Source: Gemmatimonadota bacterium (GTDB lineage: Bacteria > Gemmatimonadota > Gemmatimonadetes > Gemmatimonadales > Gemmatimonadaceae). From it: 64,000 bases of DNA. The stretch is from NCBI GenBank assembly GCA_026387915.1, contig JAPLKS010000018.1, forward strand, positions 1-64,000, written 5' to 3'. Below the pieces are notes generated by a model. The model did not search any database. It was not told where the DNA came from and saw only the letters and a list, made by a program, of their open reading frames with translations. Made by a program: the position numbers and the translations under genes. Positions 12,929 to 19,805 of this stretch are shown piece after piece (position 1 is the stretch's first letter; every line of letters begins with the position of its first letter).

Positions 12929-14428
12929 CTAGCGCGACCGACCGCCGCCGGAACCACCGCGTCCGGAACCGCCCGAGCTCGACCCACCAGGCCCGCGTGC
13001 ACCACGTGCCCCGCGGCTCGGTCCGCTGCCGCGGTGCGGCGCTACGCCGCGGCTTGGCCCAGCAGAAGAACTGGTGTTGCCACTGCGCGGCGCCCCAGCA
13101 TCACGCTGCGGACCGGTGCTCCGACTCGATTCCGAGCGTCCGGACTCGGCGCGGCTCGCGCCGCCACCACGTGCCGGACTGCTCCCCGGACGTCCGCCGC
13201 CCGACGACGGCGCACCACCACGACGCTTCGCCTTCTCCGCCGCGCGTCCGCGCTCTTCGGCTTTCCGCTTACGAATCTCGGCAATGCGTTCGGCAATCGG
13301 AATTTCGAGACGCCCTTCGGGCTTCGCCGAATAGTTGAAGTCGGGGAGCGTGACGCGCGGAAGGCGCTTGCCGATCGCTTTTTCGATGGCGCGCAAATCC
13401 GCTTCTTCGTCCGGCGCAACAAAGGTAAAGGCGTCGCCGGTGAGTTCCGCTCGCGCGGTGCGTCCCACGCGGTGGATGTAATCCTCGGGCACCGCTGGTA
13501 CGTCGAGGTTCACCACGTGACCCAGCGCTTCCACGTCAATGCCGCGTGCGGCAATGTCGGTGGCCACCAGCACGCGGTACGTGCCATTCTTGAATCCCGC
13601 GAGCGCCGCCGTGCGGGCCGACTGCGAACGATTGCCGTGAATGCGTTCGGCGTTGATGCCGTGCTTCACGAGGTAATCGGCCAAGCGATTGGCGCGATGC
13701 TTGGTGCGCGTGAACACCAGCGCTTCCTTCATCACGTCCTTGGTGAGCAACGCCACGAGCAACGCGGACTTCAGCTCCTGCGTCACCGGATACACCGCCT
13801 GCGTGATTCCGACGGCCGGCTTGGACTGCCGTTCGACGTTGATCGTGACGGGCGACTTGAGCATCTCGCGCGTGAGCTGCGCGATTGGCGGCGGCATGGT
13901 GGCGCTGAAGAACAGCGTCTGCCGTTTGACCGGCAGATGCTTAATGACGCGACGGATGTCGGGGAGAAAGCCCATGTCGAGCATCCGGTCGGCTTCGTCG
14001 AACACCAGATGCTCGATGCCGGTGAGCTTGGCGTACGGCTGCCGGAAATGGTCGAGCAGGCGTCCCGGAGTGGCGATGATGATGTCCACGCCGCTCCGGA
14101 ACGCATGTTCCTGAGGTCCCATGCCGACGCCGCCATACACGGTGGCAGCGGTGATGCCGGTGTGCACGGCCACATCGTTGATGCTTTCGAGAATCTGCGC
14201 GGCCAGTTCACGCGTCGGCGTGAGAATCAGCGCGCGTGTGGTGCCGCGCGGCTTCTCAATCAGCTTTTCGAGAATCGGGAGCACAAAGGCGATCGTCTTG
14301 CCGCTGCCAGTCATGGCGCAGGCGAGCACATCGTGTCCTTCGAGCGCCGGCGGAATAGCGTCGGCCTGAATTTGGGTGGGGCGGGTAAAGCCGAGTTCTT
14401 TCAGCCCACGCTGGAGGCTGGCGTGCAA
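12929..14428 (-). CDS. rhlE: ATP-dependent RNA helicase, RhlE type
   Basis: 499 residues from TTG 14428. All DEAD-box motifs are present: Q motif GFTRPTQIQ (13-21), Walker A AMTGSGKT (38-45), PTRELAAQ, DEAD, SAT, and HRVGRTAR in the second RecA domain. A Gly/Ser/Arg-rich disordered tail of about 130 residues follows, typical of RNA-binding extensions. The conserved N-terminal LSFGTLKLHASL reads upstream of the TTG, and no ATG/GTG precedes it before the in-frame TGA. CTG 14449, preceded by AGGA seven bases before, is a possible true start. The role is in RNA remodelling, ribosome assembly or cold adaptation. Confidence 0.93.
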   Translation of the reverse strand: MHASLQRGLKELGFTRPTQIQADAIPPALEGHDVLACAMTGSGKTIAFVLPILEKLIEKPRGTTRALILTPTRELAAQILESINDVAVHTGITAATVYGGVGMGPQEHAFRSGVDIIIATPGRLLDHFRQPYAKLTGIEHLVFDEADRMLDMGFLPDIRRVIKHLPVKRQTLFFSATMPPPIAQLTREMLKSPVTINVERQSKPAVGITQAVYPVTQELKSALLVALLTKDVMKEALVFTRTKHRANRLADYLVKHGINAERIHGNRSQSARTAALAGFKNGTYRVLVATDIAARGIDVEALGHVVNLDVPAVPEDYIHRVGRTARAELTGDAFTFVAPDEEADLRAIEKAIGKRLPRVTLPDFNYSAKPEGRLEIPIAERIAEIRKRKAEERGRAAEKAKRRGGAPSSGGGRPGSSPARGGGASRAESGRSESSRSTGPQRDAGAPRSGNTSSSAGPSRGVAPHRGSGPSRGARGARGPGGSSSGGSGRGGSGGGRSR

Positions 14429-14659
14429 CTTGAGGGTTCCGAACGACAGAGTGGCATCCTGCGAAAAGAGAGGTGTCGGGGGTCGCTGGAGTCACTCTCC
14501 AGCGTGCGTCCCACCCTCGAAATCTAACCCTTTTGGGCTGCAGATGCGGGCGGTTTTGAGGGATCCGAACAGGCAGACCGGTTGCCTCGCGCCCTCCGCG
14601 TGTCGAGGTTTCCGTGCGGCGCGGGCAGTTCGCACTGCGATGACCCCTCAGGAGCACTT

Positions 14660-16135
14660 GTGAGCACTCTCGAACAGCACTTTGCCCCCTTTCGGGCCAA
14701 CACGATCGGCCAGGACCAAACGTTCCTCTCGCCCTATGGTGAGCAACGCATTGTCTACGCCGATTGGACCGCCAGCGGCCGTCTGTACCGTCCCATCGAA
14801 ACGGCGCTCGTCGAGCGCTTTGGCCCGTTTGTAGGGAACACTCACTCGGAGTCATCGGTCACGGGGTCGGCGATGACGCTCGCGTATCACGAGGCGCATC
14901 ACATGTTGCGCGCGCATGTCAATGCGTCCTCCGATGATCTCATCATCGCATGCGGCTCTGGGATGACGTCGGCCGTCAACAAACTGCAGCGCATTCTCGG
15001 GCTCAAGGCACCGCAGGGACTGCGCCAGTACATCAACATTCCCGAGCGCGATCGCCCAGTGGTGTTCGTCACGCACCTGGAACATCACTCCAACCACACG
15101 TCGTGGTACGAGACGCTCGCCGACGTTGTGGTAGTGCCACCGGACGACGCGGGCGTGGTGAGCCTGGCCTCGCTCGAGGCGCAACTGCACGAGTATCGCG
15201 ACCGCGCGGTGAAGATTGGTGCCTTCTCTGCCTGCTCCAACGTGACGGGCGTGTTCACGCCGTATCACGCGATGGCCAAGCTCATGCATCGCGCCGGCGG
15301 AATCGCGCTCATCGATTTTGCGGCCTCGGCACCATACGTGACCATGGACATGCATCCCGCGGATCCCGAAGAGCGCCTCGACGCCGTGCTGTTTTCGCCG
15401 CACAAATTTCTTGGCGGGCCTGGATCATCGGGTGTCATGGTGTTCAATCGCTCGCTCTACAAGAACACGGTGCCCGACGATGCCGGCGGTGGGACCGTGC
15501 TGTGGACGAATCCATGGGGGCAGTACGCATTTATTGAAGACATCCAAGCGCGTGAAGATGCCGGCACGCCGGCGTTCTTGCAGACCATCAAGGCCGCGCT
15601 CGCCGTCCAAGTGAAGAATGCGATGACCGTCGAGGCCATGGGTGAGCGTGAAGCACAGATCGTGCCGTATGCCATGGACGCGCTCGCGAAAATCCCTGGT
15701 GTCCATCTGCTCGCGCCCGCCGGTCGCCATCGGCTCGCCATGCTCTCGTTCTGGGTGGAAGACATTCACTACAACCTGATGGTGCGCTTGTTGAATGATC
15801 GTTTCGGTGTGCAGGCGCGCGGCGGGTGCTCGTGCGCCGGTACCTACGGCCATTACTTGCTGCACGTGGATCCATCACGGTCCAAGGCGATCACCGACCG
15901 CATTGACCGCGGCGATCTCTCCGAAAAGCCAGGGTGGGTACGGCTGTCGTTCCATCCGTCTACGACCATGGCGGATATCGATCACGCCATCAACGCGGTA
16001 TCAGAATGTGTGACGCACGTCACACAATGGGCGAAGGACTACGTGTACTCGAACGTGACGAACGAGTATGCTCATGTGCGCGGCGATGCCGCGCTCAGGG
16101 CACGCGTGCACGACTGGTTCAAACTATCGGTGTAG
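14660..16135 (+). CDS. Class V aminotransferase-fold PLP enzyme (cysteine-desulfurase-like)
   Basis: 491 residues from GTG 14660, which has AGGAG (14650-14654) five bases upstream; an earlier in-frame start at 14582 would add an unconserved leader. The fold-type I PLP signature is clear: VYADWTASGRLYRPIE, CGSGMTSAVNKLQ, LEHHSNHTSW, the Asp in ALIDFAASAPYV and the Schiff-base Lys in LFSPHKFLGGPGSSG. A Cys pair in ARGGCSCAGTYGHYLL lies where desulfurases carry their active-site loop. It is longer than SufS/IscS (about 400) and has a C-terminal extension. The exact substrate is unknown. It is separate from the suf operon. Confidence 0.88.
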   Translation: MSTLEQHFAPFRANTIGQDQTFLSPYGEQRIVYADWTASGRLYRPIETALVERFGPFVGNTHSESSVTGSAMTLAYHEAHHMLRAHVNASSDDLIIACGSGMTSAVNKLQRILGLKAPQGLRQYINIPERDRPVVFVTHLEHHSNHTSWYETLADVVVVPPDDAGVVSLASLEAQLHEYRDRAVKIGAFSACSNVTGVFTPYHAMAKLMHRAGGIALIDFAASAPYVTMDMHPADPEERLDAVLFSPHKFLGGPGSSGVMVFNRSLYKNTVPDDAGGGTVLWTNPWGQYAFIEDIQAREDAGTPAFLQTIKAALAVQVKNAMTVEAMGEREAQIVPYAMDALAKIPGVHLLAPAGRHRLAMLSFWVEDIHYNLMVRLLNDRFGVQARGGCSCAGTYGHYLLHVDPSRSKAITDRIDRGDLSEKPGWVRLSFHPSTTMADIDHAINAVSECVTHVTQWAKDYVYSNVTNEYAHVRGDAALRARVHDWFKLSV

Positions 16136-16191
16136 TCGATGGAACGAATTCGCAAACGCGGCGTCTAATCGTCAACGTATTCGCCACGAGG

Positions 16192-17391
16192 ATGTTCATG
16201 GTCTGCCGTTGCAACTCGACGTTCCCCCGCCTGGCCGCACTATCGGTTCTCACCCTCGCGGCCTGCAGCAGCAGCGCGATCAACGCACCCGCGACAGGCG
16301 ACGGTCTCAGTACCGTCGCAACCGTTGCCGTGAATGCCGTAGCGCCCGTTGACGTCACGGTGCCGGTGTTGCCCGCCGTTCCGTTTCGCTACGCGGATGC
16401 CGCAATCGCGTTGCCATTCCACTTTACGGCGCCCAATGGCCCGCCAGGGAGCGTGGCGGCCACCGACAATACGCCCGCCAGTAATCGTGTGACCGACGCG
16501 GGCGCCACGCTCGGGCGCGTGCTCTTCTACGACAAGCGCCTGTCGGTCAACAATCAGGTCGCGTGCGCGTCGTGCCACGTGCAAGCGCGTGCGTTCGGCG
16601 ACAGCGCGCGACTCAGCCGTGGTTTCGCCGGGGGCTTCACCCATCGGCACTCGATGGCGCTCGCCAATGCGCGATACTATCAGCCCGGCCGCTTCTTCTG
16701 GGACGAGCGCGCGAGCAGTCTCGAAGTGCAGGTCCTGATGCCCATTCAAGATGCCACCGAAATGGGAATGACCTTGCCAGTGTTGCAATCCAAACTCGCG
16801 GCCACCACGTTCTATGCGCCGCTCTTTCGCGCGGCCTTTGGCACTACGGACGTCACGAGTGACCGCATCAGCCGAGCGCTCGCACAGTTCGTGCGCTCGC
16901 TGAGCTCGTACCGCGCCAAATACGATCAAGCCTTCGTCGGCAATGCGCCGCCGAACTTTGCCGCGGTTTTTGCGGCGCAAGAGCTACAGGGCCAACAGTT
17001 GTTTGTCGGCCGAGCGGGATGCGCGCGCTGCCATCGGACCGATGCGCAGGTGAGCAACACCGTCCACAACAACGGACTCGACGCCGTCCTCTCCGACACC
17101 GGCGCTGGCGGCGGCCGATTCAAGTCGCCCAGTCTCCGGAACATCGCGGTGCGAGCCCCCTACATGCACGACGGGCGGTTCACCACGCTCCGCCAAGTGG
17201 TGGAACACTACAACAGCGGCATTCAGGGCAGTCCCAATCTGGACCGCGTGCTACGTGGCCCCAACGGCCAGCCGCAGCGGTTAAATTTGACCAGTGCCGA
17301 GTTGGACGCGCTGGTGGCTTACCTTGGGACGCTCACGGATGCAAGTTTGCTGACCGACCCAAAGTTCTCGAGTCCATTCCCAAGGCCCTAG
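16192..17391 (+). CDS. Di-haem cytochrome c peroxidase family lipoprotein (MauG/CCP type)
   Basis: About 399 residues. The leader ends in LTLAACSSS, a lipobox, suggesting a periplasm-facing lipoprotein. Two haem c sites are present, CASCH (125-129) and CARCH (277-281), with the CCP-type landmarks LGRVLFYDKRLSVNNQVACA, SMALANARYYQPGRFFWDER, a PIQDATEMGM segment and RNIAVRAPYMHDGRF. Family members reduce peroxide or oxidise protein substrates. ATG 16198 is an alternative start with GAGG at a better distance. The stop codon is in frame with the following transporter gene. Confidence 0.93.
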   Translation: MFMVCRCNSTFPRLAALSVLTLAACSSSAINAPATGDGLSTVATVAVNAVAPVDVTVPVLPAVPFRYADAAIALPFHFTAPNGPPGSVAATDNTPASNRVTDAGATLGRVLFYDKRLSVNNQVACASCHVQARAFGDSARLSRGFAGGFTHRHSMALANARYYQPGRFFWDERASSLEVQVLMPIQDATEMGMTLPVLQSKLAATTFYAPLFRAAFGTTDVTSDRISRALAQFVRSLSSYRAKYDQAFVGNAPPNFAAVFAAQELQGQQLFVGRAGCARCHRTDAQVSNTVHNNGLDAVLSDTGAGGGRFKSPSLRNIAVRAPYMHDGRFTTLRQVVEHYNSGIQGSPNLDRVLRGPNGQPQRLNLTSAELDALVAYLGTLTDASLLTDPKFSSPFPRP

Positions 17392-17406
17392 GGCCGCGGA
17401 GGCCCT

Positions 17407-18639
17407 ACGAACTCCACCACGCCAGCGCGCCGATGGTCGCAACACTACACCGTCGTCGCGCTCTGCTTTGCGGCCATCTTCATCTCGTATCTCGACCGAA
17501 CCAACATTTCGGTCGCCTCCATCGCGATGAAAGAGCAGTTTGGGTGGACGGAGACCACGAAGGGCCTCGTGCTGTCGTCGTTCTTTATTGGCTACCTCCT
17601 GCTCCAGGTGGTGAGCGGCCTTCTCGCCAACAAGTACGGCGGTCGCGTGGTGCTGGGTGTGGCGGTGATCGCGTGGTCGCTCTTCACGGTGCTAACGCCA
17701 CCGGCCGCACTCTGGTCCCTCGGCACGCTCATCGCCGCGCGCATCGCACTCGGCTTGGGTGAAGCGGCGGTCTTTCCCGGCACGGTCAACATGATTGGCC
17801 GGTGGGTGCCCACGCAGGGGCGCACGCGCGCCATGGCATTTGCAACCAGCGGCATCTCGATGGGGACGCTCATCGCGCTCCCGCTCACGGCCTATCTGGT
17901 GCGCTCGTACGGATGGCCGATGCCCTTCTACCTGTTCGGCGCGCTTGGCTTGGTGTGGGCCATTCTCTGGTTTGTCTTCGTCGGAGAAGGACGCGGCGTG
18001 GAGGATGCGAAACCGCTCGCGGGTCGTGCCGTGCCGTGGCGCACCATCATGCGGACGCCGGCGGTGTGGGCGATCATCGTCAATCACTTTTGCCATAACT
18101 GGACGCTCTACGTGCTTCTGGCGTGGCTCCCGAGTTATTTCAAAGCCACCTTCGGTGTGTCGCTTGCCAATGCCGGCCTGCTCTCGGCAGCGCCATGGCT
18201 CGTGTCGTTCGTGATGAGTATCGTGATCGGTTTTGTGGCTGACGCGATGCTCGCACGTGGCTACAGTGCGACTTTCGTGCGCAAACTGCTGCAAGTCATT
18301 GGATCCGTGGGTGCAGCGGCTTTCATGCTGTTGCTGCACACGGCCCCCAGCGCAGCCATCGCGGCGGCTGTGATGTGCGGCGTCACCGGCATGCTGGCGT
18401 TCTGCTTTGCCGGCTTTGCGGTGAACTCGTTCGACATCGCCCCGCGCTATGCCGACGTGATCTGGGGCATCAGCAACACCTTCGCCACTATTCCTGGAAT
18501 CATCGGCGTATATGTCACCGGATGGCTCGTCGATCGTACCGGTGGCTACGCCGCGCCATTTCTCGTGACGGCGGGGCTCGCCTTTACCGGCGGACTCGTG
18601 TACTTGGCCATCGGTTCTGGAGAGAAAAAGATCGACTGA
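17407..18639 (+). CDS. MFS transporter (ACS family type) lacking a canonical start codon
   Basis: From residue R9 on, the translation is a standard 12-helix MFS protein: TM1 reads HYTVVALCFAAIFISYLDR with the conserved DRTNISVAS, followed by GYLLLQVVSGLLANKYGGR and ARIALGLGEAAVFPG. The first in-frame ATG (17527) would delete TM1. Upstream of it the frame is open back to the TAG of the cytochrome gene without ATG, GTG or TTG. ACG 17407 has GGAGG (17398-17402) four bases before it and is the best initiation candidate; a sequencing error (ATG to ACG) or TAG readthrough are alternatives. Anion/organic-acid symport is typical of this family. Confidence 0.85.
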   Translation, partial: TNSTTPARRWSQHYTVVALCFAAIFISYLDRTNISVASIAMKEQFGWTETTKGLVLSSFFIGYLLLQVVSGLLANKYGGRVVLGVAVIAWSLFTVLTPPAALWSLGTLIAARIALGLGEAAVFPGTVNMIGRWVPTQGRTRAMAFATSGISMGTLIALPLTAYLVRSYGWPMPFYLFGALGLVWAILWFVFVGEGRGVEDAKPLAGRAVPWRTIMRTPAVWAIIVNHFCHNWTLYVLLAWLPSYFKATFGVSLANAGLLSAAPWLVSFVMSIVIGFVADAMLARGYSATFVRKLLQVIGSVGAAAFMLLLHTAPSAAIAAAVMCGVTGMLAFCFAGFAVNSFDIAPRYADVIWGISNTFATIPGIIGVYVTGWLVDRTGGYAAPFLVTAGLAFTGGLVYLAIGSGEKKID

Positions 18640-18680
18640 CGACAAAGTCGCTGCGCGTTTCCCCAACCCCCCGGGGCTTT

Positions 18681-19805
18681 ATGTCGTATCGCATGTTGTG
18701 CTGTATCGTCTGGCTCGCCGCCTGTGGCAAGCACACGGGTGCCATTGATGGTCCCACCGTCGTCAGAAACGTCCCGTGGTCCGACAACGCGTGGACGCAA
18801 CCGGTTCCGAGCTGGGGCTCGCCGGTGCGGCTGGGCCTGCCCGTTCCGCTCGGCAACATTGTCCTCGGACCGTCGGGTGGATTTGGCGCATTCGGTGCGC
18901 ACGAAGGCGGGCATGTCGAAGGGCTCAATCACGTCTGGATTCCGATCACTCCGGGCACCGTTGTTCGCAGCTGGGCCGCCGGCAAGGTCACCAAGATCGA
19001 AGACATGGGCGACCGGGGGCTCGGCAACGGCGTGCACGAATACTTCGTGACCATCGACTACGGGCAAGGACTCGTCGGGAAGCATCTCGATGTTAGCCAG
19101 TCGCTCGTCAAACTCGGCGACACCGTCAAGGAAGGTGATCCGGTCGGCAATGCGCCCAGCGCCGAGTTTATGCTCATCGATGACAATCGCACCGACGGCG
19201 AACGCACGGGTGGCACGCCAACCACGGGTGGCTCGTATGTGTCACCCTTCGACTATCTGCGTGAGGATGTGAAAGCGTCGCTCATCGCTCGGCACATTGC
19301 GGAGCAGGTGGAGCCCTACTTCAAGGCTGGGAAAGTCGCAGGCAACCACCGTCCGTGGGAGCCGTTCCTCACGAACAAAATGTTGAACCATCCAGATCAC
19401 CTCGGTACGATCGTGGGCGAGTGGCTCCTCACCAACAAGGGGTGGAGTTCCATCGATCCACTCTACTACGAAGTGATGACCATTCACGACGTCACCAACG
19501 CATACGGTTCATTTCAGCGGATGGAGCTCGAGGATCACGACTGGTCTGTTCCTGGCAACAAGCGTGGCGCCGACGCCACCTGGCAGCGCGGCACGGAACC
19601 AGGCACGGTGATCGTGTCAATTCAGGGCAGTGCGCCGTGGTATGGTCGCTACACCGTGGACGACACGGGAAGCCGCGCCAAGCTGACCATTGAATGGCAG
19701 CATGCAGCGTATCCCACCGCCATCACCGCAAATGCCGCCGTCTACTCCGCCCGGACCACCGCCTATTTGCAGGCCGATGCACAAGCGCTCGGCGTGATCA
19801 AGTAA
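18681..19805 (+). CDS. M23/LytM-fold-like lipoprotein
   Basis: 374 residues from ATG 18681. MSYRMLCCIVWLAACGKHTG gives a lipobox (LAAC). The N-terminal part looks like a duplicated-hybrid-motif beta fold of M23 type: GLNHVWIPITPGTVVRSWAAGKVTKIE, YFVTIDYGQGLVGKHLDVSQSLVKLGDTVKEGDPVG. The usual HxxxD and HxH zinc ligands are not clear, so it may be non-catalytic. The C-terminal 220 residues are of unknown type. It follows the transporter by 41 bases and may be co-transcribed. Confidence 0.75.
   Translation: MSYRMLCCIVWLAACGKHTGAIDGPTVVRNVPWSDNAWTQPVPSWGSPVRLGLPVPLGNIVLGPSGGFGAFGAHEGGHVEGLNHVWIPITPGTVVRSWAAGKVTKIEDMGDRGLGNGVHEYFVTIDYGQGLVGKHLDVSQSLVKLGDTVKEGDPVGNAPSAEFMLIDDNRTDGERTGGTPTTGGSYVSPFDYLREDVKASLIARHIAEQVEPYFKAGKVAGNHRPWEPFLTNKMLNHPDHLGTIVGEWLLTNKGWSSIDPLYYEVMTIHDVTNAYGSFQRMELEDHDWSVPGNKRGADATWQRGTEPGTVIVSIQGSAPWYGRYTVDDTGSRAKLTIEWQHAAYPTAITANAAVYSARTTAYLQADAQALGVIK

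Follow-up and report, generated by a model that had tools for sequence, protein, structure and literature searches.

In Streptomyces, the start codon of sigR is GTC (PMC5472188). Initiation at ACG has been followed in E. coli constructs, in which it is weak yet functional and measurable (PMC10449621; PMC6925171), and in one E. coli reporter it gave 0.1-1.5% of the ATG level (PMC6925171). IF3 discriminates against a mismatch at the second base of the start codon (PMC10158994). In E. coli gene pairs, reinitiation drops steeply with distance and is already down by 40-80% at +14 nt (PMC10666635). Among SLC17/ACS carriers, Asp46 and Arg47 in TM1 of DgoT serve in proton coupling and substrate binding (PMC6532931).

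Here we describe an MFS transporter gene that lacks a usual start codon and directly follows a di-haem peroxidase gene in a Gemmatimonadaceae genome (G000; 3.58 Mb, 23 contigs). The window, meaning the whole stretch of 64,000 nucleotides that was analysed, corresponds to C18:1-64000 of this assembly. Our best explanation, which we hold with roughly even confidence, is that the MFS gene (17407-18639) is intact, that its ancestral ATG (or GTG) has become ACG, and that this ACG now supports translation at a low level. The features on which the argument draws are collected in Table 1.

Table 1 Features at the junction of the peroxidase and transporter genes (window positions).
Feature	Position	Strand	Evidence and remarks
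di-haem peroxidase, MauG/CCP type	16192..17391	+	ATG 16192, TAG 17389-17391; PF03150 1.8e-48, Cytochrom_C 2.4e-08
predicted 7-bp perfect stem-loop, TAGGGCC-GCGGA-GGCCCTA	17389..17407	+	-13.3 kcal/mol; inverted repeat
MFS transporter frame, stop to stop, SLC17/ACS type by resemblance	17392..18639	+	415 codons; PF07690 2.4e-51
GGAGG, Shine-Dalgarno-like	17398..17402	+	4 nt 5' of ACG; read as GGAG, 5-nt spacer
ACG, proposed MFS start (fMet-NSTTPARRW...)	17407..17409	+	sequence; start sites of 22 relatives
DRTNIS motif, end of TM1	17494..17511	+	sequence; aligned with the DgoT Asp46/Arg47/Asn49 region
first in-frame ATG of the MFS frame	17527..17529	+	product of 370 aa lacking both TM1 and the DR motif

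An earlier note on this DNA had stated that the MFS frame holds no ATG, GTG or TTG between the peroxidase TAG and TM1, that GGAGG precedes ACG 17407 by four bases, and that TM1 with its DRTNIS motif is coded before the first ATG. Sequence and frame listing confirmed all three statements. The first ATG, GTG or TTG of the frame is ATG 17527, the bases that separate GGAGG from ACG are CCCT, and the stretch from TAG to TM1 holds just two near-cognate codons, ACG 17407 and a second in-frame ACG at 17419, which has no Shine-Dalgarno (SD) sequence. Gene callers limited to ATG, GTG and TTG would start the transporter at ATG 17527 and drop TM1 together with its substrate and proton residues.

To place this arrangement within the genome, 1.97 Mb (55% of the assembly) with 1,519 coding frames were scanned with a codon model trained on 420 long frames of the first 848 kb, and each frame was scored for coding signal before its first ATG, GTG or TTG. 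The MFS frame ranked first of the 1,519. The list also recovered prfB, whose programmed frameshift makes it a positive control, while several other top entries resemble wrong frames or ordinary genes. The prfB gene (L121:5391-6461, minus strand, on contig C9) has the usual programmed-frameshift arrangement with CTTTGAC. In the sampled genome, only 0.42% of all ACG triplets have GGAGG 3-10 nt upstream. At unambiguous starts of the same genome, GGAG with a 5-nt spacer is common (8 of 48 GGAG cases), and GGAGG with a 4-nt spacer was found in one of seven cases. The SD sequence therefore lies at a usable distance from ACG 17407, though partly within a predicted hairpin.

Comparison with relatives located the expected start. 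The comparison set comprised 22 full-length MFS homologues (60-69% identity), mainly of the same family, and in every one of them an ATG or GTG start precedes a RRW...YTVV stretch by a few codons; the window reads ACG NSTTPARRWSQHYTVV at this position and is the sole member of the 23 sequences without a usual start. Because the homologous starts all fall a few codons before RRW..YTVV, ACG 17407 is, judged from the alignment, at the right place for a mutated start codon. The earlier note had pointed to the start region of close relatives; in the closest one the codon is unreadable. The contigs of this nearest genome (G007; about 93-98% identical DNA) end at 14716 and 18721, so that window positions 14717-18720 are missing from its assembly. 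These borders are exact contig ends, and the segment may be strain-variable or merely unassembled.

Conservation in the MFS frame extends upstream of ATG 17527 and takes in both RRW and TM1. As a further candidate, an indel or frameshift might lead into the MFS frame from ATG 17433, which stands in a different frame just before TM1. This ATG overlaps the conserved RW codons (CGA TGG), however, conserved coding in the MFS frame already begins 5' of it, and no slippery sequence is evident nearby; we rejected this candidate as very improbable.

Analysis of the whole frame indicated an intact gene. The frame is open, with neither stop nor frameshift, and keeps its conserved motifs; at 110 otherwise invariant columns the window protein deviates at 3, the relatives at 0-5. 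By these measures the gene is without sign of decay or relaxed constraint. The same measures bear on a real and recent loss of the start, which would leave the gene silent, or with a truncated product from ATG 17527, before decay has set in. ATG to ACG is the type of single mutation that nearly silences a gene, the hairpin would further hamper initiation, and the locus falls within the G007 contig breaks and is possibly strain-variable. Against such a loss are the intact frame, the conserved motifs and the lack of any excess of unusual substitutions, and the product from ATG 17527 would be without TM1 and the DR motif, whose aligned Asp46 and Arg47 are functional in DgoT (PMC6532931). We consider it unlikely.

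An error at a single base was also weighed, either in the assembly or as a minority variant of the population, in which case the true codon at 17407 would be ATG and the gene an ordinary one. A single transition would bring back a usual start precisely where one is expected, and the ACG is located where a GC-rich inverted repeat containing GGC motifs ends, a context reportedly discussed in connection with Illumina errors. The assemblies of close relatives do not span ACG 17407. On the other side, the 201 kb that align to G007 (93% identity) contain no frame-breaking indel inside a gene that is not offset by a second, compensating one; as far as indels go this points to a sound consensus, substitution errors lying outside this measure. 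Such an error must moreover strike one of the three bases of a start codon, by our estimate a rare event at ordinary consensus error rates. We regard an error as unlikely, to about the same degree as a start loss.

The hairpin at the junction (Table 1) starts at the peroxidase stop codon, takes in the SD sequence and closes on the A of ACG. Among 1,502 gene starts sampled, it is the strongest structure in the -18..+3 interval. A 91-nt fold around the junction is not more stable than shuffled sequences (z 0.17). When compared instead with gene 3' ends, 7 of the 1,519 frames reach its value or a lower one directly at the stop, and an equally good hairpin is found within 60 nt of the stop in 18% of them. 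Since it is unexceptional at gene 3' ends, the structure may be just a plain 3'-end hairpin of the peroxidase gene. At several gene ends of this genome (for example C18:1152, C18:73226 and C22:243822), a hairpin likewise begins at a TAG stop codon and is closed by CTA, and at least one of these hairpins is common to convergent genes. An origin of the ACG by template switching from the inverted repeat was also considered and rejected, as the left arm copied one base further gives G, not C.

For initiation at ACG, the predicted hairpin cuts both ways. It would conceal the SD sequence and the start from free ribosomes, which speaks against an ACG start. Should ACG be in use, the hairpin would point to a need for ribosomes coming from the peroxidase gene, whose stop codon is followed by ACG 17407 after a gap of 15 nt. 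Given the steep loss of reinitiation with distance in E. coli gene pairs, a gap of this size counts against the proposed start, as do the very weak initiation at ACG in E. coli and the selection exerted by IF3. Coupling to the peroxidase is probable because the 7-bp hairpin spans the stop codon, the SD sequence and the A of ACG. The course of events that we propose is that an ancestral ATG or GTG of the MFS gene mutated to ACG, that initiator tRNA now decodes ACG 17407 as fMet, aided by the GGAGG just 5' of it, and that ribosomes arriving at the peroxidase TAG would open the hairpin that otherwise covers SD and ACG. Initiation of the transporter would then be coupled to peroxidase translation, and its output would be low. 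A stronger form of this idea, that the junction is a translational switch in which a natural ACG start and an SD sequence held in the hairpin allow the transporter to be made only during peroxidase translation, appears to us distinctly unlikely.

Of the three readings offered in the earlier note, a rare ACG start is the best supported, though short of proof; a hidden base error and read-through were the others, and start loss has been added here as a fourth. Read-through of TAG to give a peroxidase-transporter fusion did not survive the comparison. The two genes are in the same frame (17392-16192 = 1200), an agreement expected for one third of neighbouring genes, and past the TAG this frame stays open into the MFS gene. 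The peroxidase C-terminus SSPFPRP* matches the natural ends of homologues (FSNPFPKP*, FSNPFPR*), which stop at the same residue and are followed by unrelated DNA, so that the in-frame continuation is not conserved. In none of the relatives' MFS loci examined does a peroxidase gene adjoin the MFS gene; in one related genome (G017) the two share a contig at a distance of 6.4 kb. The peroxidase also bears a lipoprotein-like signal peptide of the export type, whereas the N-terminus of the MFS protein should be cytoplasmic, and a periplasmic lipoprotein joined to TM1 would presumably bring that N-terminus to the wrong face of the membrane. A fusion is accordingly hardly credible.

Other genes of this lineage also appear to lack standard starts. 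A DEAD-box helicase gene in the window (12929-14491, minus strand) has CTG at 14449-14447 with AGGA 7 nt upstream. The CTG is identical in G007 (L123) and G017 (L163), thus in three species, while in twelve others that are related the codon is TTG, GTG or ATG, and a conserved CTG start is likely from this comparison. As alternative starts, G000 and G007 have a TTG seven codons further on, and G017 has a GTG 15 codons upstream. The infC gene (L235, contig C11, near 143216) has no ATG, GTG or TTG before its conserved N-terminus and probably uses, by its sequence context and as other bacteria do, the ATT 7 nt downstream of GGAG. A Ser/Thr protein kinase gene (L208:3064-5388; C22:123064-125388) has no usual start before GTGGMARVY; its candidates CTG, ACG and ATC are conserved in G007, whose DNA upstream has diverged, and no clear SD sequence precedes them. 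A scan of IMG/VR gave no match. That the lineage tolerates other non-standard starts (infC ATT, helicase CTG) lends the ACG start indirect support, indirect because in E. coli both CTG and ATT outperform ACG as start codons.

The identity of the transporter follows from resemblance. The PF07690 match places the protein in the MFS fold family, and comparison with PDB sequences returned sialin (2.1e-61) and DgoT (1.8e-36), by which it resembles the SLC17/ACS type (TC 2.A.1.14) and would transport organic anions. NCBIfam searches gave TIGR00894 (5.5e-75, 252.7 bits against a cut-off of 626) and TIGR00893 (1.1e-59, 202.3 bits against a cut-off of 395), neither match reaching the curated cut-off of its named subfamily. 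In TM1, YLDRTNISVAS of the window aligns with YVDRANLAVAS of DgoT. For the peroxidase, the nearest NCBIfam families are MbnH/MauG-like, again below their cut-offs.

Set against the known carriers DgoT (6e9n) and sialin (8dwi), the window transporter shows likeness over its full length and DRxN in TM1. It scores higher to sialin over the full length, whereas its TM1 Asp is common to DgoT and absent from sialin, and its scores stay below the curated cut-offs of the NCBIfam subfamilies. The upstream gene likewise has the CCP_MauG and cytochrome c domains of MauG/MbnH-type di-haem enzymes and falls below the cut-offs of these named subfamilies. The start itself is best compared with the known non-canonical starts of bacteria. 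Unlike those of the infC and sigR type, the window ACG departs from ATG in its second base, is not shared by relatives and was seen in a single genome. Like infC (ATT/ATC) and sigR (GTC), the transporter is a conserved gene with an SD-like sequence and no ATG, GTG or TTG at its start, and low, possibly IF3-sensitive initiation would be expected of it as of them. Should the start be confirmed, a natural ACG case would join the short list of bacterial genes with non-standard starts, alongside which the same genome supplies the CTG helicase and ATT infC as further test cases.
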